56,368 nt of DNA from a virus. Below the pieces are notes generated by a model that searched no databases, had not been told where the DNA came from, and was given only the letters and a program-made list of their open reading frames with translations. The first letter of the stretch is position 1; every line of letters starts with the position of its first letter. A program made the translations under genes and the position numbers. The stretch covers positions 1 through 56,368 of IMG/VR virus record IMGVR_UViG_3300032323_000661; one strand, 5' to 3'. Shown here piece after piece: positions 1 through 56,368 of the stretch.

Positions 1-123
1 GAACTTCTGGATGTTGTTCGCCGCCTCGCTGGCAGTCAGCGTGTAGCTACCAGTCACTACGGGCTTGGTCAGCACGGTGAATGCGAAATTCGTGCTTACG
101 CCGTAGCCCACCGTGATGTAGGA
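1..123. repeat. Terminal direct repeat, left copy
   Basis: These 123 bases are identical to 56246-56368. The repeat lies inside one open reading frame that reads through the join without a shift. It is most simply the overlap of a circularly closed assembly of a circularly permuted or terminally redundant phage genome. A genuine short terminal repeat cannot be excluded from sequence alone. Confidence 0.95.
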
Positions 124-31177: not shown

Positions 31178-31438
31178 CTACTGTTTGATACGGATCGCCA
31201 CAATATGCGCGTACCCCGCGATATCGGCCCAGGAATCGACCACGTTGGGGTCGCCGTTCAGAATGCGCGATATCTTGTGCTGGATCATGTCGAGCGACTC
31301 GCGCTGATGGGGCAACAGGTTCTGCCACCCGGGTATCAGTCGCATGTAGTCCTTCAAGTCCTGCGCGATATGGGCTTGGTCCGTGAAATCCCCATACTGC
31401 TCACCCCGCTCGGCGGTAATTGCTTCGATGTCTGCCAT
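31178..31438 (-). CDS. DUF6378-like protein
   Basis: An 86-aa protein: ERGEQYGDFTDQAHIAQDLK, LDMIQHKISRILNGDP, then VDSWADIAGYAHIV. This linear motif order matches what I recall as DUF6378, a compact helical phage family of unknown function sometimes likened to nucleotide-pyrophosphohydrolase-type bundles. GGAGG lies upstream of the ATG. It is near the Z-DNA genes. Confidence 0.75.
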   Translation of the reverse strand: MADIEAITAERGEQYGDFTDQAHIAQDLKDYMRLIPGWQNLLPHQRESLDMIQHKISRILNGDPNVVDSWADIAGYAHIVAIRIKQ

Positions 31439-31443
31439 TTGCT

Positions 31444-31665
31444 TCAGTCCTCCGTCCGTACTGCTCGCGCATCTTCACGTTCGAACAATTCCAACTGGGC
31501 GCGAGTCACGACCTCCACCGGTGCCCCGGTCGTCGCTTCCGGGTGTTCGCGTGTCGTGAACCGCGTCTTGCACACTATGCACCCGCGGCGGCGCTTTACA
31601 CGCCCGTCCTCGTTCTGGTATGTGGTCAACACCCGTGTGTCTTCCCCGCATTCGATGCATCTCAT
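31444..31665 (-). CDS. NrdR-type zinc-ribbon protein
   Basis: A 73-aa protein starting MRCIECGEDTRVLTT, continuing RRRGCIVCKTRFTTREHPE. These two CxxC pairs and the basic RVKRRRGC stretch closely follow the N-terminal zinc ribbon of bacterial NrdR, the repressor of ribonucleotide reductase genes. The ATP-cone that normally follows is absent. It overlaps the gene before it in the datZ-mazZ-purZ run and could bind host nrd operators. Confidence 0.75.
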   Translation of the reverse strand: MRCIECGEDTRVLTTYQNEDGRVKRRRGCIVCKTRFTTREHPEATTGAPVEVVTRAQLELFEREDARAVRTED

Positions 31666-31856
31666 TGCATTTGTCCTTTCACTTCTTGCGCTGCGAATTG
31701 CAGCGATTGCGCCAGTTCCGCGTAGTCGCGGGGGTGCACATGCACGAACTCAATCCCAGCGGTCGGCGAGTTCTGCACGAGGATGACGCCCGTTCCGTAC
31801 ATGAGAGCATCAACCACGGCTTTCTCGGTGACCTGCGCCAGATCGGTCGGGTTCAC
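31662..31856 (-). CDS. 64-aa protein coupled to datZ
   Basis: Starting at the GTG that overlaps the datZ stop (GTGA), it reads MNPTDLAQVTEKAVVDALMYG and contains GVILVQNSPTAGIEFVHVHP. Small alpha/beta protein, no recognised family. Confidence 0.6.
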   Translation of the reverse strand: MNPTDLAQVTEKAVVDALMYGTGVILVQNSPTAGIEFVHVHPRDYAELAQSLQFAAQEVKGQMQ

Positions 31857-32416
31857 AGCCAGCCCCCGTGGATATTGATCTCGGCGCACACTTCGCGCAC
31901 CCCGGCACGCACCCGCAACTCGGGCCACTGCTTCTCGATGGTGTCCACCATTGTGGCGAGAATCCGACGCATACCGTCGAGCACCTCCAGCGCGTGCTGG
32001 CCATAGCCGTTGTCCTGCAGGAAGAAAATCGCCTCGATCTGGTCCGCGAGCTTCACGATCGCTTCGATCTCGGTCCCTTCCGATTGCCGCATCGAGCCCG
32101 AGTGGTCACGGTCCACGAGGTCCTCGGCACGCTCGACGACACCGGGTCCGGCGACCTTTTCGAGTTCGCGCTTAAATGGTGTGGGGATATCGCCCGTACG
32201 CACCTCGATCAAGTCGTGCGAGAGCGCGTTCTGCAGCAGCTGGAGCCGGAGACGGTCGTGCAGCAAGCCCTTGTAGCCCATCGAGGCGGCGAGCGAGCCC
32301 GCAATGACCGCAACCGCAAAGGAGTGTTCGGCCAGTGTCTGCTGGCGGTGCGTTTGTACGATGTGCCAGCGTTTCACATGGCAAGCGCGGAGTTGTTCGT
32401 AGGTGGTGAGGCTCAT
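31853..32416 (-). CDS. datZ: dATP triphosphohydrolase (HD domain), DatZ
   Basis: Expected to hydrolyse dATP to deoxyadenosine and triphosphate, emptying the dATP pool so that dZTP is used. The 187-aa protein has the HD-domain metal ligands H31 (TLAEHSFAV), H67-D68 (ALSHDLIEV) and D125 (VKLADQIEA), with spacing close to that of the characterised cyanophage S-2L enzyme. TGDIPTPFK follows the HD pair as in YfbR-like nucleotidases. The ATG overlaps the previous stop (ATGA). Clustered with mazZ, purZ and dpoZ. Confidence 0.88.
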   Translation of the reverse strand: MSLTTYEQLRACHVKRWHIVQTHRQQTLAEHSFAVAVIAGSLAASMGYKGLLHDRLRLQLLQNALSHDLIEVRTGDIPTPFKRELEKVAGPGVVERAEDLVDRDHSGSMRQSEGTEIEAIVKLADQIEAIFFLQDNGYGQHALEVLDGMRRILATMVDTIEKQWPELRVRAGVREVCAEINIHGGWL

Positions 32417-32628
32417 GAGGTAATCGCTTGAAGGCGACGAATGCGGTCGGCCACTGCGTCGCCGGTCATTTCGTCGAAGATTTGAAATTCGAATTGGCGG
32501 GCTGCGGTTTCGAGTGCGTCGTTCCACACTCGACGGATGGCATTCCGATTCTCGGGGTCATCGTGCCCCTCGTATTGCGCGAACGCGGTATTGTACCACG
32601 CATCGAAGGGTTTATTCCGATCCGACAT
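32413..32628 (-). CDS. 71-aa protein between mazZ and datZ
   Basis: Starts MSDRNKPFDAWYNTAFAQYE and is helical (RRVWNDALETAARQFEF). The ATG at 32628 has AGGAT upstream and lies inside the end of mazZ. The stop overlaps the datZ start. No known function; a helper in the Z pathway is possible only by position. Confidence 0.6.
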   Translation of the reverse strand: MSDRNKPFDAWYNTAFAQYEGHDDPENRNAIRRVWNDALETAARQFEFQIFDEMTGDAVADRIRRLQAITS

Positions 32629-33115
32629 GGCGCATAATCCTCGTGTTCGAGTCCACCGTCCACGAACGGGTCTCGTTAATGTCCATTTTCTCCTCCACCG
32701 CTTTATGCACATCGATGCCGTTCTTGTGCGCGACGTCCAGCAGCAGGATCATGATGTCGCCCATTTCGAGAGCCGCCTTTGGATTACGCGCATATTCGCC
32801 GACTTCTTCATAGAGCTTGAGTAGAATATCGGCTGTAGTCCTATTAGGGAAGTTCGCGTCCGCCCATTTCGTGATGCGGTCCTGTAATTGGCATATATCT
32901 GCACCGCCTCTCTTTTTGTAGGCGTTGACTGCTCGCACTGTAAGATCCGCATTCCGGTCGCAATTGGCGAGAACACCCTTGAGGTGGTGACGAACTTCGA
33001 AAGACGCGACGGCAGCGCCGGTCGCATCGACAACGACCGCCCCATTTGTCGGGGAGACCGCCCACGGTGTTGCGTTCTCATGGTCAGTATGTACGGTTGA
33101 TTCAACTTGCAGCAT
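32612..33115 (-). CDS. mazZ: MazG-like nucleotide pyrophosphohydrolase, MazZ
   Basis: Expected to convert (d)GTP to (d)GMP, the substrate of PurZ. The C-terminal domain (about 80-155 of 167 aa) has the MazG acidic motif: KLYEEVGEYARN followed by ALEMGDIMILLLDVA, i.e. ExxE then ExxD. An N-terminal extension of about 70 residues (WAVSPTNGAVVVDATG, NADLTVRAVNAYKKRGG) is not part of the core fold. ATG 33115 has AAGGAG 8 bases upstream and overlaps the end of purZ. Confidence 0.85.
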   Translation of the reverse strand: MLQVESTVHTDHENATPWAVSPTNGAVVVDATGAAVASFEVRHHLKGVLANCDRNADLTVRAVNAYKKRGGADICQLQDRITKWADANFPNRTTADILLKLYEEVGEYARNPKAALEMGDIMILLLDVAHKNGIDVHKAVEEKMDINETRSWTVDSNTRIMRHVGSE

Positions 33116-34217
33116 TGCGGCACTCCTTCCAGTATTGTACGATTTTTTGCATGCGTTCGGCACGATCGCCGTTTATCTGGCGCACGTCGTGGTATCCCGG
33201 CCCCACCCCGATCCAGCGCACTTGCGTGTCTTTGCGTTCGATCGCTTGCACGATGTCGATCAGCTCCACCTCGTTGCGCACGTAGTTCACGAAATTGAGG
33301 AACACCTCGAACACGCCGTTGTGCCGAATCGCCTCCTCGATCTGTCGGCCCGAGAACGTGAAAATCCGGCGCGGCAGCTTCGTCACCGTGGTGAGTTCGG
33401 TCTTTTGCCCGATGTCCTCGAATGCGATCTCCACCTGATCATTGTAGCACGGGCCGGAGTATCCGACCTGCGTCCCAGTTTCGTCGAATCGGTTAGCCAC
33501 ACGGATCGGGTAGGTGCGGCAGGTGCCGAGTGCGCGGACCTTGCAGACGCGGTACTTGTCGAGCACGTCGGCGGCTTGGATGCCGGAGTCGGCCAGGATC
33601 TGCCACAGCGACACATCGCGGGAAGTCGTGTAGGGGTAGAATCCATGGTACATCGACAGCTCGTAGCCCTGCGCTCCCTCGACCAGCACGTATTCGGAAT
33701 CCTTGAGCGCTTGGCGGTACTCGTCGGTAGTGACCACGTACGGACCGAGCACATCGATGAAATTCGCCGCAATGTTCTGGTCGTCCGGGTCGCGCCGGAT
33801 ACGCTGCACCATTGCTGCGCCCACGCCCTTTTTGGTCGAGCCGATCTTAGTCATGGGTCCCGCCTCTTCCTCGATGTGGCGGTCGGTCACAATGGCGGCG
33901 TGCGGGTGGATGAGGATGTCGATATTCTTGTGGATGATGATATCGCGGCACTGCTCGATCTCGGCCAGCAGCCGGGACGGGTTGATCAGCGAGCCCGGGC
34001 CGAGGAACACGCGACGGACTGCGGGTCCCACGATGCCGTTGGCGAGGTGTGTGTGAATGAACTTGCGCCCGTTCTTGTCGATGTACGTGTGCCCCGCATT
34101 TGGTGCCCACGCAGTCACAATCGCGTCGTACGGGCCATTCTCGGCAAGGTAGCCCACGAGGAGGCCCTTGCCGGTGCTGCCGTATTGAAGATCTACGATG
34201 ACGTCTACTTTTTCCAT
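33102..34217 (-). CDS. purZ: 2-aminoadenylosuccinate synthetase, PurZ
   Basis: Condenses dGMP with aspartate to give N6-succino-2-amino-dAMP, which host PurB would split to dZMP. The 371-aa protein is a PurA homologue: P-loop-like GSTGKG at residues 13-18, APNAGHTYID near 40, GSTKKGVG, VLVEGAQGYELS and KVRALGTC. In cellular PurA the first motif is GDEGKG with a catalytic Asp; here Ser14 occupies that place, the substitution reported for PurZ. AGGAG precedes ATG 34217. Confidence 0.93.
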   Translation of the reverse strand: MEKVDVIVDLQYGSTGKGLLVGYLAENGPYDAIVTAWAPNAGHTYIDKNGRKFIHTHLANGIVGPAVRRVFLGPGSLINPSRLLAEIEQCRDIIIHKNIDILIHPHAAIVTDRHIEEEAGPMTKIGSTKKGVGAAMVQRIRRDPDDQNIAANFIDVLGPYVVTTDEYRQALKDSEYVLVEGAQGYELSMYHGFYPYTTSRDVSLWQILADSGIQAADVLDKYRVCKVRALGTCRTYPIRVANRFDETGTQVGYSGPCYNDQVEIAFEDIGQKTELTTVTKLPRRIFTFSGRQIEEAIRHNGVFEVFLNFVNYVRNEVELIDIVQAIERKDTQVRWIGVGPGYHDVRQINGDRAERMQKIVQYWKECRNAAS

Positions 34218-34233
34218 TATTACTCCTGTTGTG

Positions 34234-36072
34234 TTAACCTTTAGCTTCGTACCAATCGTCCCCGATACCCCAGTCGCACGTGATCGGCACGCGCAACGCG
34301 ATCGGGCATTCTACACCGTCGAATGTGGTGTAAATCCGTGCTATCTCCTCCGCGTGCTGCAGACAGTCGGTGTCGAGCGAGATATCCACCTCGTCGTGAA
34401 CCGACAGCAGCAACCGCCCCCAGCCCTCGCTGCGAAGCTTGCGGTGCAACTCGATAAGCTTAATCTTCATGCAGTCGGCGCTGGTCGCTTGGTAGATCAG
34501 TCCCGACGCCTTGTGCACGAACCGCCCACCCGGGAACCGGATGTGTCTGCCCATCATCGAATGCACGTACCCGCGCTCTTTCGCGATGCCCGACGCCTTG
34601 ATCTGGTTGTTGCGCATACCCGGGTTCGCCGCGTGGTACTTGTCGAACAGCGCCAGCGCCTCGGGTCCGGCCTTGAGGTAAACGTTGCCGTTCGGCCCCT
34701 CCTCCTCGGTGTACGGCAAGCCGCACTCCTGCGCCAGCCGTCCGGAGCCCATGTTAAAGGCGAGTCCGAGGTTGATCGCCTTGGAGGACGGACCCCCGGC
34801 GTACTGCGCGTTGCGGGGAATGCCGGTCATGTCGGAGACCAGCTGGTGGAAATCCAGTTGCGGGTTCTTGCGGTAGGCCTCTAGAATCGCGGGTACTTGA
34901 CCGTAATGATTAGCCACTCGGAATTCGAATTGCGACCAATCAAGGCCCAGCCATTTCGCACCATAATCCGCCTTAAAAATCGGACGAACCAGCGATTTAA
35001 TAGCGACGTCTCTACTCGGGATCTGCTGCAGAGCGGGATTTGTAATAGAAAGCCGCCCGGTTCCCGTTCCAGCTTCAGAGTCATTTTTGGTCTGGTTGTA
35101 GTTGCAGTGAATGATGCCGTCGTGTTGATGCCCAAGGATGTGCCCCGACAGGAAGGTGTCGCGGGTCTTGAGCATCTTGCGAAGGTCCAGGATTTGCTTT
35201 GCCGCTGGGTGCCGCATGCGGCGCAGACAGTCGGCGTTGATGGACGCCTTGCCCCCGTCGGTCTTGTCGGCCCGGGTGCCGTCAATCAGATACCATTCAT
35301 TGTCCGCACCGAGCTTGGGTTGAAACAGCTGTGCGATTGAACCGGAGGGGTTCGGATTGACCTCGAAGCCCGCCATGGTATTGAGATCGCGCTGGAATTC
35401 GTCGATGCGAACGGTGAGGCTCCGGATGGCCTTCTCGGCCAGCTCCACGTCCACCCGCACTCCCTCGGTCTCCATGTCGATAATCACCGGCTGCAGATCG
35501 CGCTCCAGCTGGTGAACCCGGCGCAGGTTCTGGCGCTCCATTTCGCCGCACTGCCATTCGTACAGTGCCCGGGTGACCACCGCGTCTTGCACAGCGTACT
35601 TGGATACCACGTGCACGGGGGCTCGCGATATGTTCGGCATCTGCGCGTTCCGCGTCGCCCGCCCACCGAAGAGCTTGGCCATTTCCTCGTAGATCTCGTC
35701 GTCCTTCTTCGCACCGCAGTATTTGCGGGCCAGGAAGTCGAGCGTGTAGGTCGGCTCGTGCTCGTTGATCAGCGCAGCACGAATCATCGTGCAGTCCAGC
35801 TGCTCGGGAGGCAGTAGAACGCCGCCTTCGCGCAGAAAGTGGTAGTCGAATTTAATGTTGTGCCCGATCCACTCGCCCACGCGACCCTCGCGGATCAGGT
35901 CGTTGAACCACTCGACAATACGGGGCTCCTCGCGTACGTCCCAGTAGTACCCGCCTTCTTCCCCGGGCAACGCGATGGAAATCCCGAATACACGGTCTTC
36001 CCACCACTTGAGCCCAGTTGTCTCGGTGTCGATCACGCAGTACGGGACCGAATCAATACGGGGAACTCGCAT
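34234..36072 (-). CDS. dpoZ: Family A DNA polymerase, DpoZ type
   Basis: Replicative polymerase of 612 aa with an N-terminal 3-prime to 5-prime exonuclease (D15 and E17 in VIDTETTGL; GHNIKFDYHFL near 70-80; VQDAVVTRALYE near 165) and a PolI-type polymerase domain: motif A LGLDWSQFEFRV (~370), motif B SSKAINLGLAFNMGSG, motif C SVHDEVD (~555). There is no 5-prime nuclease domain. Position beside purZ is that of DpoZ in aminoadenine phages, where it favours dZTP over dATP. The start lies 3 bases after the SSB-like stop. Confidence 0.92.
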   Translation of the reverse strand: MRVPRIDSVPYCVIDTETTGLKWWEDRVFGISIALPGEEGGYYWDVREEPRIVEWFNDLIREGRVGEWIGHNIKFDYHFLREGGVLLPPEQLDCTMIRAALINEHEPTYTLDFLARKYCGAKKDDEIYEEMAKLFGGRATRNAQMPNISRAPVHVVSKYAVQDAVVTRALYEWQCGEMERQNLRRVHQLERDLQPVIIDMETEGVRVDVELAEKAIRSLTVRIDEFQRDLNTMAGFEVNPNPSGSIAQLFQPKLGADNEWYLIDGTRADKTDGGKASINADCLRRMRHPAAKQILDLRKMLKTRDTFLSGHILGHQHDGIIHCNYNQTKNDSEAGTGTGRLSITNPALQQIPSRDVAIKSLVRPIFKADYGAKWLGLDWSQFEFRVANHYGQVPAILEAYRKNPQLDFHQLVSDMTGIPRNAQYAGGPSSKAINLGLAFNMGSGRLAQECGLPYTEEEGPNGNVYLKAGPEALALFDKYHAANPGMRNNQIKASGIAKERGYVHSMMGRHIRFPGGRFVHKASGLIYQATSADCMKIKLIELHRKLRSEGWGRLLLSVHDEVDISLDTDCLQHAEEIARIYTTFDGVECPIALRVPITCDWGIGDDWYEAKG

Positions 36073-36075
36073 GGC

Positions 36076-36357
36076 TCAGAACGGGATGTCGTCGGACTCA
36101 ATACCCCCGAAGCTTGGGCGCTCCATGCGCTGCACCCCACCACCGCTGGCCGGAGCCTGTGACTCTTTGCGGTTGAGCTTGATGGAGAAGTACTTTTTGC
36201 CTTCCATCTTGCCACCGGGCTTGCCCTCGTTCACCCACGCGGAGAGCCAGTAATCTGTGCCCTCGACGTTGATCGAGCCGGAGAATTCCGGGTGCTTGTC
36301 CGTCTTGCGGTTCTCGTTGCGGGCCATCATGCCCGAATTGGTGTTGTCGTATGCCAT
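36076..36357 (-). CDS. SSB-like single-strand DNA-binding protein
   Basis: A 93-aa protein starting MAYDNTNSGMMARNENR. It has a small beta domain (HPEFSGSINVEGTDYWLSAW, KKYFSIKLNRKE) and a C-terminal tail ending ESDDIPF, which mimics the DDDIPF tip of bacterial SSB that recruits repair and replication proteins. It lies directly upstream of the polymerase. The fold assignment is by pattern. Leader GATAGAGGACC precedes ATG 36357. Confidence 0.65.
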   Translation of the reverse strand: MAYDNTNSGMMARNENRKTDKHPEFSGSINVEGTDYWLSAWVNEGKPGGKMEGKKYFSIKLNRKESQAPASGGGVQRMERPSFGGIESDDIPF

Positions 36358-36393
36358 TTTGTATCGGTCCTCTATCAGTTCGTTGATGTGTCT

Positions 36394-36423
36394 ATTATAG
36401 CACAGGTGCCACAGGAATGGCAA
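36394..36423 (-). promoter_or_regulatory. Promoter for SSB-like, polymerase and Z genes
   Basis: Minus strand: -35 TTGCCA (36423-36418), 18-base spacer ending CACCTGTGC, -10 TATAAT (36399-36394) with extended TG. It sits in the 76-base gap before the SSB-like gene and shares its -10 context with the early cassettes, but lacks the CTGG hairpin. Confidence 0.75.
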
Positions 36424-36433
36424 CTGGCCGCGT

Positions 36434-37849
36434 TTACAATGGGTAGGGGTTGTGGCCCTCCACAATGTCGAGTTGCCGCTTGGCGCGAGTCATACCGACG
36501 TACCAGACGCGAATCTCGTCGTCGGGCGATTTCTCGGCACTTTGCGCCACTCGGGTGGTCATGTCCGTGAGAAGAATGACGCGATCGGCCTCGTGACCTT
36601 TCGCAGCATGGATTGTAGAAAGCCGGATCGTGGGGATGGATTCCAAGTCAGCGTCTCGGTAAAAGTCCACGGCTCGCCCGGGGATGTTGAGTGCAACGTA
36701 GAAGGGTCGAGCATATACCGATTTGTAGTCGTTGGCCTCAAGGAATCCCCGAGTGGAGGCAGTGGCACAATTGAAGAGCGAATTTCGCTCTCCGTCAGTG
36801 ATCTGCTCGCCCCTTTCAAGCTTGCGGAATACGCGAATAGCGGCTGCGTATTTGTTCTGGTACATCCCCGGGCGTCCCGATTCGCGCACGTACGGGATGC
36901 GTTCTTCAATGAGCGATTGCTCAACTTCGCGAAGCACTGAATGCGTCCGTCCCAGTAAAAGTATATCCTCTCCATGTGTGATGTCCACGGAGTGAATCGA
37001 CCCGAATAGGCGGACCAGTCCCAAATCCGGGCGGGGACTAAAGTCCTTGTCCACTCGGAGAGCAACGCGACGGATGAGGTCTTGAGATTTCGCGTGGATT
37101 GCAGCAGGAAGTCGATGCGAGAGCGAGAGCACATGGCTATCACCCTGATGCTTCTGCGTGAATCTTGCCATACCGTGTGCATCCGCACCGGCCCACGTAT
37201 AAATCGCCTGATCATCGTCCCCTGCGATATGCACTTCGTGAGCACGTCGGCAGAGCTCCTCGATAACACGCCACTGAAGAGGTGATAAGTCTTGAGCTTC
37301 ATCGACAAATACGACTTCGGCATCTCCACGCATGCCGCCCCGAGCGGCTCGCTCAAGCATGTCGGTAAAGTCGTAAAAGCCATACGTAGATTTCCACTCA
37401 GCGTATGCCCGTACGAACGCATTGAACTCGGCGCGGGTTCCCGGCCTATCCGAGACGTCATATACTTCATCCGGATGGGAGAAGGTGTTGCGGGCATAGT
37501 TAAGTAGGTCAAGGTAGAAGTCTCCATCGGCACGCTCCTCATCGTCTTCGGGTGATTTCCCAATAATCGGAATCCCCATCACCGTGGAGAACTCCCGCAG
37601 TTTCATCGAATCCACCACCTGCGCCTGTCGCATATTCATCGATCGAAATGCCATGGCGTGGATGGTGGATACGTTGTCGGACCGCTTAAGACCGAGCCTG
37701 GACAGAGCCTCCGAGGCGGCGGCACGGGTGAACGACACGAAGGCGACGCGTTCGGCCTGAACGCCTGAATTCCTCGTGTGCTGCACCCGCCGCAGCATCT
37801 CGGTGGTCTTGCCGGTGCCCGGAGGCCCGTAGAGCGCGTGGACTTGCAT
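36434..37849 (-). CDS. SF1 DNA helicase (UvrD/Rep-like)
   Basis: A 471-aa ATP-driven helicase. Motif I is YGPPGTGKTTEM (residues 7-18), motif II VDEAQDLSPLQW, motif III GDDDQAIYTWAGADAHG and motif VI VWYVGMTRAKRQL near the C-terminus. It is smaller than host UvrD, lacking large 1B/2B insertions, like phage Dda-type enzymes. The ATG at 37849 overlaps the previous stop (TAATG), with GAGG upstream. Confidence 0.9.
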   Translation of the reverse strand: MQVHALYGPPGTGKTTEMLRRVQHTRNSGVQAERVAFVSFTRAAASEALSRLGLKRSDNVSTIHAMAFRSMNMRQAQVVDSMKLREFSTVMGIPIIGKSPEDDEERADGDFYLDLLNYARNTFSHPDEVYDVSDRPGTRAEFNAFVRAYAEWKSTYGFYDFTDMLERAARGGMRGDAEVVFVDEAQDLSPLQWRVIEELCRRAHEVHIAGDDDQAIYTWAGADAHGMARFTQKHQGDSHVLSLSHRLPAAIHAKSQDLIRRVALRVDKDFSPRPDLGLVRLFGSIHSVDITHGEDILLLGRTHSVLREVEQSLIEERIPYVRESGRPGMYQNKYAAAIRVFRKLERGEQITDGERNSLFNCATASTRGFLEANDYKSVYARPFYVALNIPGRAVDFYRDADLESIPTIRLSTIHAAKGHEADRVILLTDMTTRVAQSAEKSPDDEIRVWYVGMTRAKRQLDIVEGHNPYPL

Positions 37850-38208
37850 TAGCCTCGGTGCGTGATGCCACGAACGGCCCACATGCTGGCGGTCTCGGCG
37901 TTGGTGATGGCCACGGAGAACATGCGTTGCACTTCGGCGTCGTGGTAGGAGTCGCGCAGCACCAACAGGTACGTAATTGCTGCGTCGAAATGCTGCTTCG
38001 TCTGTTTCACGCGACGTATCTCGTCTTGAGACAAGGGAACATGCAGCGTCACCGACTCCTGCTCCCTCGCGGGTGCTGGGTCCGGCGTGGGCGCTGCGGC
38101 CACCACGGGTTGCGGGGATTGCACCGCGCTCTCGCTGGGCATGTCGCTGGGCATTGCCTTGAAATCGTCGTGCGGTACGGTCGTATCGGTAGTCTTTTTG
38201 GTCGCCAT
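37849..38208 (-). CDS. Acb2-like small helical protein (possible anti-CBASS)
   Basis: A 119-aa protein. The first 55 residues are disordered and Pro/Ala-rich. The C-terminal 65 residues form a predicted helical hairpin (VPLSQDEIRRVKQTKQHF, then AITNAETASMWAVRGIT) whose layout and ending match the recalled Acb2/Tad1 hairpin domain (DUF7681). Acb2 proteins sequester cyclic nucleotides and block CBASS defence. This is an inference from motif memory. ATG 38208 has AAGGA upstream. Confidence 0.5.
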   Translation of the reverse strand: MATKKTTDTTVPHDDFKAMPSDMPSESAVQSPQPVVAAAPTPDPAPAREQESVTLHVPLSQDEIRRVKQTKQHFDAAITYLLVLRDSYHDAEVQRMFSVAITNAETASMWAVRGITHRG

Positions 38209-38224: not shown

Positions 38225-38374
38225 TTAGAAGCAGTTGGTGGTACAGTTCGGTCCGAAGCAGCAGGTGGTGCAGGTCACGATGCGACCGCCCTGCATGATT
38301 GTGTGCGTTGAGCATGCCGCCCAAGTGCTCGTGGAGAGCGCAAAGATCCAGACGCCTACGAGTGCTTTTTTCAT
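38225..38374 (-). CDS. 49-aa exported Cys-rich peptide
   Basis: Starts MKKALVGVWIFALSTSTWAAC: a basic start, a hydrophobic core and a small-residue cleavage site before the first Cys. The mature part is Cys-rich (CTTCCFGPNC, then CF at the end), so it is probably disulphide-bonded or a lipoprotein-like periplasmic peptide. The lipobox (WAAC) is not canonical. ATG overlaps the previous stop; GGGAG lies upstream. A superinfection-exclusion role is possible but unproven. Confidence 0.65.
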   Translation of the reverse strand: MKKALVGVWIFALSTSTWAACSTHTIMQGGRIVTCTTCCFGPNCTTNCF

Positions 38375-38733
38375 GATAACTCCCTAGGTGCGGGGAACAG
38401 TTGGGCCAGCACTTCGGCGTACTGGGACTTGCGGCGCTCCAGCAGCGCGGCTTTGTCGAGCTTGTCGAGGAGGCTCGGGAAGTTAATGTCCTCCTTGCTG
38501 CACTGCTCTTGGATATCGGCTTCCAATCGGATCAGCTCGTCGTCCAGCTTGGCCATCTCCAGCTCGGCTTGGCTCTTGACCTTGCGTGCGCGAATCGGTG
38601 CCAGCGACTCGGCCAGCTTGGCCATCTCCAGCTCGGCTTGGCTCTTGACCTTGCGTGCGCGAATCGGTGCCAGCGACTCGGCCAGCTTCTCTTTCGACAG
38701 TGCGATGATCTCGGCGAATGGTTTCAATTTCAT
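38371..38733 (-). CDS. Helical protein with internal 23-residue duplication
   Basis: A 120-aa, fully helical and charged protein. Residues beginning KLAESLAPIRARKVKSQ are repeated exactly in tandem, reflecting a perfect 69-bp duplication. Likely a coiled coil. The next gene starts within its stop codon. Function unknown; the duplication should lengthen the helix by about 34 angstroms. Confidence 0.7.
   Translation of the reverse strand: MKLKPFAEIIALSKEKLAESLAPIRARKVKSQAELEMAKLAESLAPIRARKVKSQAELEMAKLDDELIRLEADIQEQCSKEDINFPSLLDKLDKAALLERRKSQYAEVLAQLFPAPRELS
38544..38688. repeat. Perfect 69-bp tandem duplication
   Basis: Copies at 38544-38612 and 38613-38681 read as identical, plus 7 bases of a third copy. 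In frame within the helical-protein gene. Confidence 0.9.
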
Positions 38734-40750: not shown

Positions 40751-40780
40751 ATTATACACTACACGAGTGTTCCGAGTAAC
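40751..40780 (-). promoter_or_regulatory. Probable promoter after the SF2 helicase
   Basis: Minus strand -10 TATAAT (40756-40751) followed by the GATAGAGGACC leader of the 40721 gene. The -35 region (GTTACT or TTACTC) is poor and overlaps the helicase 3-prime end. Confidence 0.5.
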
Positions 40781-42492
40781 TTACCGGTAGAACGATCGTT
40801 TATGCTCGTGCGAATGAACTCCGATACGTCCTTCTTGCTCTTGAGCGCTTCAATCACGGTCTCGTCCACAGTGCCCTCGGCCACCAAATCGATGTAGGTT
40901 ACACTCCGCGTCTGCCCGATCCGGTGCGCCCGGTCCTCGGACTGCTCGCGGTCGGTGAACGAGAACGAGTTGGAGTAATACACGACGAGCTCGGCGGCGG
41001 TCATGTTGAGACCCACGCCACCGGTGGCCGCGTTGCCCACGATGAACCTCGCCTTCTTGGTCTGGAACTTGTCCGACACGTTCGCCCAGCGTGTGTCCTC
41101 GTCGATCGCTCCGTACACCTGCACGACAGAACTCGGCCCGTACTTCTCGACAAGCGCCTCGGTCACCATCTGGATCTCTTCGATGAACCGGCACCAAATG
41201 ATCGTGCTGCACTCGGTCTCTTCCACGATCGACATTAGCTCCTCGATCTTTGCGTTCTTGCCGGGAATCCGTACATGATCGAATTTCGAGGGGTTGTGGA
41301 CGTCCGGGTTGCGTTCCCACGTTGCCACTCCTCCTGCGATTTCTTGGAGTCGGAGCATTTTTTCGAGCATTGTGGTGACGGTGATTCCTCGATCTCCCAT
41401 GACCGCTTTGTCACGCTTAGCAATTTCGCGATATATTCTTTTCTGTTCATCATTGAGTTGCACTGTTCTGGTTTCGAACACTTTCGGCGGCAATTCGGTC
41501 AGCACCTCCGACTTGCGCACTTGGAACGTGAAGGGCGCGAGCAATTCGGTCAGCTCCGCCATGTTCTGGTAGCCCACGACCTGCCGTTGCTCGTACCCGC
41601 CCATGATCGCGTAGCGGTTACGGAACGAGTAGAAATCGCCGATCCCGATGATATTCGGGTCGATGAACTCGAACTGCATGAACACGTCCATAGGTCCGTT
41701 GGCCACAGGGGTGCCGGTCATAATCACCCGGTAGTTCGCCGACAGCCCGAGCTTGACGCAATTCTTGGACCGTACCGCCGAATGGGTCTTGATCATGTGC
41801 GCTTCGTCCACGATCATTCCCACCCGAGTGCTGCAGCCGACGAACTTTTGCGCCAGCAGCGTCGCACCACCAGCGGCGAGCGATTCGGTGCCCACGATCA
41901 GGAATTTAAGGCCTCGGCTCGTGTCGGTGTTCCACGCCTCGAACACCTTGGGTTTGCTGGTGTCGAGCACAAGCACGTCGGTCTCGACCGGGCAGTGAAT
42001 CCCGATCTCGGCCTCCCAGTTGCGGCGCGTCGAGAACTTGGTCACCACGAGCACCCGGTCCACCTTGCCGTCGACGAAATACGCCGAGAACAGGTCGAGC
42101 GACGTCTTGGTCTTGCCGGTGCCCATGTCCATGTAGAACGCGAACCCTGGCTTGCCCCATGCACAATCGAGCGCTCGGCGCTGGTATCCCCTCGGCTCCG
42201 TCTTGAACGGGTACAGGGGTGGGAACGGATTTAGACGGGCGGCAGCCTTTTCGATAGTGCGAGTTGCAGCCTCGCGAGCTGGGCCTGTGAAAACGTCAGC
42301 ACCAAAATTGCTGAGCAGAAACTCGCTATTAGCGCGTAATGCAGGAGCTGTCCACACGCGGCGACGAGCATCCCAACGCCGATTAGGCACCGCACGCACC
42401 TTGTCCACCATCCAAGGAGGAGTCTCGATAATGAAGCGCGAGGTCTTGGCATCGTAGTCAATCTTAATATTCGGAGCGGAAGACGGGTTCAT
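40759..42492 (-). CDS. SF2 helicase of the SNF2/SMARCAL1-like type
   Basis: A 577-aa DNA-dependent ATPase. The N-terminal WDARRRVWTAP region resembles a HARP-like substrate-recognition segment. Helicase motifs: I YMDMGTGKTKTSL, II VDEAHMIKTHS, III MTGTPVANG, V VGLNMTAAE, VI SEDRAHRIGQTRS. Such enzymes in phages drive branch migration, fork remodelling or origin melting. It follows the primase with a 29-base overlap. GAGG precedes the ATG. Confidence 0.9.
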   Translation of the reverse strand: MNPSSAPNIKIDYDAKTSRFIIETPPWMVDKVRAVPNRRWDARRRVWTAPALRANSEFLLSNFGADVFTGPAREAATRTIEKAAARLNPFPPLYPFKTEPRGYQRRALDCAWGKPGFAFYMDMGTGKTKTSLDLFSAYFVDGKVDRVLVVTKFSTRRNWEAEIGIHCPVETDVLVLDTSKPKVFEAWNTDTSRGLKFLIVGTESLAAGGATLLAQKFVGCSTRVGMIVDEAHMIKTHSAVRSKNCVKLGLSANYRVIMTGTPVANGPMDVFMQFEFIDPNIIGIGDFYSFRNRYAIMGGYEQRQVVGYQNMAELTELLAPFTFQVRKSEVLTELPPKVFETRTVQLNDEQKRIYREIAKRDKAVMGDRGITVTTMLEKMLRLQEIAGGVATWERNPDVHNPSKFDHVRIPGKNAKIEELMSIVEETECSTIIWCRFIEEIQMVTEALVEKYGPSSVVQVYGAIDEDTRWANVSDKFQTKKARFIVGNAATGGVGLNMTAAELVVYYSNSFSFTDREQSEDRAHRIGQTRSVTYIDLVAEGTVDETVIEALKSKKDVSEFIRTSINDRSTGKLLGTLV

Positions 42493-44026
42493 CGATTTTT
42501 ACCTCATGCTCTTCAGTAATAGGGGCGTACCAGACGTTAATAACCTTGCCGCCCGGAATTCGCATCTTGTCGTGGTCCGCCCCACAGTCGCGGCGCAACG
42601 CGATCCACAAATCCATGCCGTGCAGCACCTCGGCCTTGTTGCGCTTGAGGAACTCCGAGAATGCGGTGCCTTTGAACACCACACACCGGACGCCGTTGAC
42701 CACCTGCACTATCGGAATGTTCCGGGTCAGCGCCTTGCGGTCTTCGGTATTGGTGCCCTCGGACGCGAGGTCGGCCTTCTGCACGAACTCGGTGAACTTG
42801 GCGGCGATCACACCCGAAGCGGACGCCTCCTTAGGCACTTCGACGACACGGAGATTGGGAACCAGCGGGTCGAGTACGCGCCGACGCCACGACTCCTGCG
42901 AGATCTTGGGGATATTGATCTTAATGCGCTCGAAGATCAGGTTACCCATAGCGGCGGGGTCGCGCAGCACGATGGTAGGAATGTTCGAGATCAGGTGCCC
43001 GTTGACGTGCAAGCCCCAGCGCGGCGGGTCCGATTGATACTCGATCAGGTCCGTGAACTGCGGCAGCGAGTCCTGCGCGTCCAGGTCTTTAGCCTCGTCC
43101 ATCGAGATACCGAACTCGCGGGTAACGCACACCTTGCGATCGCACAGGCTCTTGCAGGGGTCCTCGGAGCACTTGTACAGGTAATCGCGGCGCGATGCCG
43201 AGCGGATCACCTTCTTAGCCTCAGCCGGTCCCAGCGGCTTGTCGAACATTGTCTTGTTCAGCGCCATCGCGTCGCCAAAGAACGTGTCGGGACGGGCACG
43301 CTTGAGGTACACCACCACGTTGTACATGGAGTCGTTCCGAGAGCCGGACTCGACCCCGGTGTGGATCATCTTCTGGATACACGGTGGCGCTTCGAGGTGC
43401 TCGCGTGTCGCCATCGCTTGCAGCTGTTCGACCGTCACCCGCTTGGACTGCGCCATTTGCACGAACAGCTCGAACGAGATCCGCTCGCCCTTCTCGTTCA
43501 CCGCGTACCGCACCGTATCCTCGACGTTGAAGTAGCACAGATTAATCCAGTTACCCAGCGATTTCTCGCCACTGGAAGTCACCAGCGAATCCTGCTTGGG
43601 GAATATGTCCACGTGCGTTTTAATCTGGAGCATGTCGCGCCAGCTGTTCAGGAGCCGGATCACGAGCTTGGCCGGGAGGTAGTCCTGCCCGAACAGGTAC
43701 AGATGGCACCCGCCCGATTTGGAACGCGTCGGCACAAGCGGGAGCCGGTACTGCTCGATCTTGGTGGCAAGGTCCACGATGTCGATATCGGACCCGTCCG
43801 ACCCTTTACCGTGGTTGTCCACGTCGATACACCCGAACTTGCAGGTGCCGCCGTCGGTCACGGGGACTACCCCTAGACCCATGCGCCCGGACAGGTGCGC
43901 GGCGTAATGCTCTTCCGTGACTTCTGCCTTCTCCGTTACCATATTACCGGTACTGGGGTCCCACTGGCCGTAAGACCGCAGGTTCCCGGAGAACAGATCG
44001 GCGAAGTCTTTAACTAGACTCGTCAT
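42464..44026 (-). CDS. Archaeo-eukaryotic-type primase (TOTE/PrimPol-like)
   Basis: A 520-aa protein. The N-terminal half has the catalytic acidic pair in GCIDVDNHG (near residue 70) and SKSGGCHLYLF with the basic/His residue expected of the TOTE-type AEP primase fold. A Cys cluster (YKCSEDPCKSLCDRKVC) in the middle should bind zinc. It would make primers and might also polymerise DNA. First gene of the replication module; ATG 44026 with GAGGA upstream is chosen over a longer frame that runs into the promoter. Confidence 0.8.
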   Translation of the reverse strand: MTSLVKDFADLFSGNLRSYGQWDPSTGNMVTEKAEVTEEHYAAHLSGRMGLGVVPVTDGGTCKFGCIDVDNHGKGSDGSDIDIVDLATKIEQYRLPLVPTRSKSGGCHLYLFGQDYLPAKLVIRLLNSWRDMLQIKTHVDIFPKQDSLVTSSGEKSLGNWINLCYFNVEDTVRYAVNEKGERISFELFVQMAQSKRVTVEQLQAMATREHLEAPPCIQKMIHTGVESGSRNDSMYNVVVYLKRARPDTFFGDAMALNKTMFDKPLGPAEAKKVIRSASRRDYLYKCSEDPCKSLCDRKVCVTREFGISMDEAKDLDAQDSLPQFTDLIEYQSDPPRWGLHVNGHLISNIPTIVLRDPAAMGNLIFERIKINIPKISQESWRRRVLDPLVPNLRVVEVPKEASASGVIAAKFTEFVQKADLASEGTNTEDRKALTRNIPIVQVVNGVRCVVFKGTAFSEFLKRNKAEVLHGMDLWIALRRDCGADHDKMRIPGGKVINVWYAPITEEHEVKIDEPVFRSEY

Positions 44027-44053
44027 GATTTCCTCGCTATAAGCTATTGGGGA

Positions 44054-44082
44054 TTGACACCACCTCGGTGGGCTGGTAGAAT
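44054..44082 (+). promoter_or_regulatory. Possible plus-strand promoter
   Basis: TTGACA (44054-44059), 17 bases, TAGAAT (44077-44082). The spacer contains the inverted repeat CCACC-TC-GGTGG. It overlaps the -10 of the oppositely directed primase promoter and would transcribe into region B, where no gene is seen. It may make a primer or regulatory RNA, or be chance. Confidence 0.35.
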
Positions 44083-44110
44083 TATAACACTCCCCATCTC
44101 GGAACAGCAA
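44081..44110 (-). promoter_or_regulatory. Promoter for primase and SF2 helicase
   Basis: Minus strand: -35 TTGCTG (44110-44105), 18-base spacer, -10 TATAAT (44086-44081), about 55 bases before ATG 44026. Confidence 0.6.
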
Positions 44111-55829: not shown

Positions 55830-56368
55830 TAGAACACCCCACCGGAGATACCCCCGATAAAGTTCCCTGTACCCGGTGACCTAATTCCGGTGGTGTTCAC
55901 CTCCAGCATCAGATTCCCGAGGACGGTAATACCGAACTGGCCAAGGCCCACACGGTACACACCGGTGTTGGTCTCCAGCGCGAACTGCAAAGAGGGCGAT
56001 CCGACGTTGCCGTCGGTCAGCTGGATCACCGTCGCACCGGCTTGGAAGGTGTTCGCGTTCAGGAAGTTAGTGCCATCGCAAATCAGCGTAGCTTGCCCTC
56101 CGGGCGGGATCTGCGCCGTAGCGCTTCCGACGACCCCGGTGGTTACGGTCAGGGTGCGGCCACCCGCCACCGTCTGGTTCGAGATCACGTACAGGTTCAC
56201 CACGGGTGGGTAGTTGACCACTACGTTACCGGTGAGAGTGCCCGTGAACTTCTGGATGTTGTTCGCCGCCTCGCTGGCAGTCAGCGTGTAGCTACCAGTC
56301 ACTACGGGCTTGGTCAGCACGGTGAATGCGAAATTCGTGCTTACGCCGTAGCCCACCGTGATGTAGGA
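55829..56368 (-). CDS. Tail-associated structural protein, C-terminal part (cut by window edge)
   Basis: C-terminal part of the 412-aa protein that begins at 822 on the other side of the join; the first 41 codons here duplicate the end of that piece. Contains TGSYTLTASEAANNIQKFTG and a repeated beta-type section, and ends GTGNFIGGISGGVF, with NTGVYRVGLGQFGITV resembling fibre C-terminal segments that present the variable tip. Unrecognised family. Confidence 0.8.
   Translation of the reverse strand, partial: SYITVGYGVSTNFAFTVLTKPVVTGSYTLTASEAANNIQKFTGTLTGNVVVNYPPVVNLYVISNQTVAGGRTLTVTTGVVGSATAQIPPGGQATLICDGTNFLNANTFQAGATVIQLTDGNVGSPSLQFALETNTGVYRVGLGQFGITVLGNLMLEVNTTGIRSPGTGNFIGGISGGVF
56246..56368. 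repeat. Terminal direct repeat, right copy
   Basis: Identical to bases 1-123; see left copy. Marks the closure point of a unit of about 56,245 bp. Confidence 0.95.

Follow-up and report, generated by a model that had tools for sequence, protein, structure and literature searches.

PurA, the cellular adenylosuccinate synthetase, has a catalytic aspartate that abstracts the N1 proton and contacts Mg, and the phage enzyme PurZ0 uses GTP. A survey from 2026 found serine in all phage PurZ and PurZ0 sequences compared (147/147), whereas Asp13 occurs in 99% of PurA (PMC12884076). The introduction of that paper describes PurZ as using ATP, and because of this, together with the GTP use of PurZ0 noted above, the order of the two donors in one of its passages was taken to be swapped. 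Solved structures represent PurZ of S-2L (PDB 7odx) and phiVC8 (6fm1, 6tnh) and PurZ0 of Actinomycetota phages (7vf6).

The DNA analysed here, referred to as the window, is the whole of IMG/VR record IMGVR_UViG_3300032323_000661 (56,368 nt). It encodes what is almost certainly the purZ of a double-stranded DNA tailed phage, predicted to have 2-aminoadenine (Z) instead of adenine in its DNA, a reading based directly on sequence, family membership, pocket residues, fold and operon structure. The purZ reading frame opens with ATG, just downstream of an AGGAG ribosome-binding site, and runs for 371 codons to a single terminal stop. Its product passed the NCBIfam PurZ model NF038379 (327.4 bits, cut-off 300), matched the phage adenylosuccinate synthetase family PHROG 1211, and had as its top sequence matches in the PDB the PurZ proteins of phiVC8 (E 1.7e-79) and S-2L (5.5e-77), followed by PurZ0 and Pyrococcus horikoshii PurA at about 1e-26. 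An AlphaFold2 model (mean pLDDT 85.9, pTM 0.88), built on an alignment of 27 relatives from which one row (L049) with stop codons in its match range was left out, had low confidence in the pocket loop at residues 189–198 (pLDDT <50). When this model was compared using Foldseek and VIA-align, S-2L and phiVC8 PurZ again ranked first (Z 40.6 and 40.2, rmsd 2.1), with lower scores for archaeal PurA (33.3), PurZ0 (32.6) and bacterial and eukaryotic PurA (≤29.9). The solved PurZ structures, with which the sequence-only reading of this DNA had proposed a comparison, are thus the nearest by both sequence and predicted fold. The dGMP-bound PurZ structures, at 41–46% identity, are also the closest characterised PurZ proteins, and in the tree the window protein fell in the PurZ branch (support 100/99), apart from PurZ0 and PurA. 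The gene is an ordinary phage PurZ and a new example of a known system.

Table 1 Coordinates of predicted features in the window.
Feature	Coordinates	Strand	Basis
purZ, succino-2-amino-deoxyadenylate synthetase, 371 aa	33102..34217	-	NCBIfam NF038379, PHROG 1211, PDB matches
P-loop-like motif Y12-G-S-T-G-K-G18 in purZ	34164..34184	-	
Ser14 codon (AGC)	34176..34178	-	
Asp9 codon	34191..34193	-	conserved in all PurZ; PurZ0 and E. coli PurA have Gly
dpoZ, family A DNA polymerase with 3'-5' exonuclease, phiVC8-like	34234..36072	-	NCBIfam NF038380
Single-strand DNA-binding protein (SSB)	36076..36465	-	PHROG 7364
UvrD/PcrA-like helicase	36434..37882	-	PF00580, PHROG 1967; synteny
mazZ, MazZ-1/DUF550-type dGTP diphosphohydrolase (predicted)	32612..33115	-	PF04447
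Small ORF between mazZ and datZ	32413..32712	-	BLASTP match in 45/62 related loci
datZ, HD-domain dATP triphosphohydrolase (predicted)	31853..32416	-	PHROG 7076
Short zinc-ribbon-like ORF	31444..31665	-	NrdR-like by eye
DUF6378 protein	31178..31438	-	conserved in 51/62 loci
Small ORF with in-frame direct repeat	38371..38733	-	AESLAPIRARKVKSQAELEMAKL twice
SNF2-type helicase, adjoining the AEP-type primase	40759..42492		
AEP-type primase	42464..44110	-	PF22548
Terminal direct repeat, 123 nt	1..123 and 56246..56368		exact match

The other genes of a Z-genome surround purZ (Table 1). Downstream lie mazZ, a small ORF and datZ, and upstream dpoZ, SSB and the helicase, whose position ahead of dpoZ is shared by SH-Ab 15497 and PMBT28. 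Neighbouring reading frames overlap or are almost contiguous, in the manner of an operon. Translation of mazZ probably starts at the ATG at 33115, within the 3' end of purZ, and that of datZ at the ATG at 32416. DpoZ scored 772 bits against NF038380 (cut-off 500) and keeps the exonuclease residues D26, E28 and D85 as well as R440, L455, F459 and G548 of phiVC8 DpoZ. NCBIfam names this polymerase type DpoZ_1, a numbering opposite to that of PMC12884076, where DpoZ-1 is the PurZ0-type polymerase. MazZ retains all of the S-2L catalytic and guanine-contacting residues (E34, E35, E38, E50, D53, I56, D60 and R83), and DatZ retains R19, W20, I22, H34, H66, D67, E70, D75, P79, K81, K116 and D119 of S-2L, including the HD and metal residues. 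The set of purZ, mazZ, datZ and dpoZ is full, its members retaining their published active-site residues. Elsewhere in the window, a short zinc-ribbon-like ORF and a gene for a DUF6378 protein lie beyond datZ, another small ORF contains an in-frame direct repeat, and an SNF2-type helicase adjoins an AEP-type primase that is 39–42% identical to those of SH-Ab 15497-like and PMBT28-like Z-phages.

The P-loop-like motif at the start of PurZ reads GSTGKG. Aligned against E. coli K-12 PurA (GDEGKG), the protein has Ser14 in the column of the catalytic aspartate, in agreement with the substitution that the sequence-only reading had described from the translation, and the Ser14 codon lies within the interval 34149–34182 that was singled out there. 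The same serine is found in PurZ of S-2L, phiVC8, SH-Ab 15497, PMBT28, ZP6 and VLCpiS6a. Across a comparison set of 69 PurZ rows, mostly IMG/VR loci, 65 span this column, and both the serine and the entire G13–G18 motif are identical in every one of them (65/65), so Ser14 is neither a chance change nor a sequencing error. Taken with the 147 surveyed sequences, this invariance indicates that Ser14 is a family trait rather than a local oddity, one that, judged from the alignments, marks PurZ and PurZ0 as a group. No substitute aspartate, which would have counted against the earlier interpretation, was found at or beside the catalytic column of the window protein, the nearest being Asp9, five residues upstream. 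The identification as PurZ, with the Asp-to-Ser change as its hallmark, is upheld by the PurZ model score, the best structural matches and the survey (PMC12884076).

The ligand pockets were compared with the residues published for S-2L PurZ bound to dGMP and dATP (PMC8342488), and 29 of the 31 motif and ligand positions checked are identical. The exceptions are S-2L C204, which is Thr197 in the window and varies across PurZ (T, C or V), and S-2L Q308, which is Asn311 as in phiVC8. The dGMP pocket is consequently unchanged save for C204, and the T273–T276 loop covering the aspartate site, Val240 beside the 2'-position, Arg142, Arg239 and Arg283 are all retained. N308, F309, N311, G339 and P340, corresponding to S-2L N305, F306, Q/N308, G335 and P336, form a donor pocket that on its residues is of the adenine type.

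These features bear on two other assignments. A phage PurA acting on IMP to raise host AMP synthesis, with Ser14 as a neutral change, would belong to the same superfamily (PF00709 matches at 112 bits) and share the fold of the window protein, yet every PurA equivalog model scored far under its cut-off (112 versus 395.55 and 145 versus 368) while the PurZ model passed, about 20 PurZ-only columns are retained, and the neighbours are datZ, mazZ and dpoZ. Such a role is very improbable, and PurA membership was rejected on the serine in place of aspartate and on the 112 bits against 395.55. Still less probable is a GTP-using enzyme of the PurZ0 type instead of an ATP-using PurZ: serine at the catalytic column is common to both, but the window motif is not GSEAKG, the N308-F309-x-N311 adenine pocket is missing from PurZ0, the window protein groups with PurZ in the tree, and its partners are DatZ and MazZ, not DutZ and DmtZ. 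Membership of PurZ0 was rejected since GSTGKG and N-F-x-N are present, without GSEAKG or a GTP-type donor pocket.

With the assignment to PurZ retained, whether Ser14 itself explains the use of dGMP is a separate matter. The sequence-only reading held that loss of the aspartate lets the enzyme accept dGMP; the change is a real PurZ hallmark, but wording that makes it the cause exceeds the evidence, and support for the causal claim is only partial. The serine hydroxyl of S-2L PurZ lies 3.7 Å from N2, the 2-amino nitrogen, a distance described as too long for the hydrogen bond that had been postulated (PMC8342488), and in the 69-row comparison about 20 further columns are PurZ-only relative to PurA and PurZ0, including Asp9, Thr15, Arg200, Asp210, Asn242, Arg243 and the N308-F309-x-N311-Y312 block; for these two reasons serine is not proven to be the cause. 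The valine pressing on the 2'-OH, along with other positions confined to PurZ, also takes part in the choice of dGMP, and on the alignments serine alone fails to tell ATP-using PurZ from PurZ0. The analysis found no data on mutants.

It is possible, though on balance doubtful, that Ser14 is only one of several coupled changes and that much of the altered base chemistry is due to Asp9 or to other residues specific to PurZ. The 3.7 Å distance and the residues invariant in PurZ only favour this idea. Against it, the serine substitution is reported for phage PurZ and PurZ0 as a whole (PMC12884076), Asp9 is missing from PurZ0 although both enzymes are classed together as users of dGMP, and Asp9 is not among the listed ligand contacts of S-2L PurZ (PMC8342488). 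Such coupling would refine the best explanation rather than compete with it, and the confidences given to the readings therefore do not sum to one. Asp9 is conserved in all 66 PurZ rows (66/66), is also invariant in A1, and in the AlphaFold2 model lies near the end of strand 1, with Ser14 opening helix 1. A role for this residue was not described in the PurZ literature consulted, and the more specific proposal that in ATP-using PurZ it compensates for the lost PurA aspartate, acting as a base in a shifted position or as a residue linked to the metal, is unlikely.

The activities, substrate and Z content of the PurZ-based system would be those of its studied relatives. MazZ would convert dGTP to dGMP, and PurZ would join aspartate to C6 of dGMP with ATP (or dATP), forming dSMP, which host enzymes would carry on to dZTP. 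DatZ would destroy dATP, and DpoZ would copy the genome with Z opposite T. Ser14 is the usual PurZ residue in the purine pocket, without the carboxylate that PurA applies to N1 of IMP, and would leave space beside the guanine 2-amino group.

Among phage records, 209 matched the window PurZ, the best at near 48% identity and none at ≥60%, and Megablast found no near relative of the 12-kb replication region in phage records. IMG/VR contributed 62 related loci, up to 87% identical, with MazZ in 61, DatZ in 60 and DpoZ in 55, some of the absences being due to contig ends; the purZ-mazZ-datZ set is thus found in 60–61 of the 62. The window pairs with one of these loci, L006 (support 100/97), inside a 47-row group made up of uncultured contigs only (87/96), many of them 53–59 kb in length. 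The contigs L006–L067 form a large uncultured Z-phage group without a close cultured relative, several of them 53–59 kb long. A scan of 84,980 species genomes for this PurZ type returned two metagenome-assembled contigs only, both with GSTGKG and taken to be phage contigs; the scan used narrow peptide patterns and says nothing on the frequency of serine in cellular PurA. Because of the exact 123-nt terminal direct repeat, the record is probably a complete, terminally redundant genome of about 56.2 kb; no tRNA genes were found in the window. Mild novelty is confined to the lineage, an uncultured group of Z-phages in which PurZ identity to cultured relatives does not exceed about 48%. The window contributes a further predicted 2-aminoadenine phage, equipped with a full textbook gene set, in an uncultured lineage distant from cultured examples, and the comparison reveals positions invariant across PurZ, while the motif as such brings no new biology.

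Compared with known systems, the window PurZ shares with those of S-2L and phiVC8 the serine in GSTGKG, the dGMP and adenine-donor pockets and the fold, but is 41–46% identical to them, has a long C-terminal helix and, relative to S-2L, carries Thr197 for C204 and the phiVC8 state, N311, for Q308. As in SH-Ab 15497, PMBT28 and Klebsiella phage VLCpiS6a, helicase, SSB, DpoZ, PurZ, MazZ and DatZ are encoded together, and the AEP-type primases of these phages are 39–42% identical to that of the window. In contrast, their SSB gene lies between dpoZ and purZ rather than before dpoZ, their mazZ is a fused version longer than that of the window, and the window has an extra small ORF before datZ. The nearest primases are those of SH-Ab-like and PMBT28-like Z-phages, whereas the terminase of the window most resembles those of other phages. 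PurZ0 of Actinomycetota phages likewise has serine at the catalytic column, but is set apart by GSEAKG, another donor pocket, DutZ-type partners and a separate branch (PMC12884076). Cellular PurA shares its fold, and a large part of its nucleotide pocket, with the window PurZ, but carries aspartate at this column, and the window protein falls far under the cut-offs of the PurA models.
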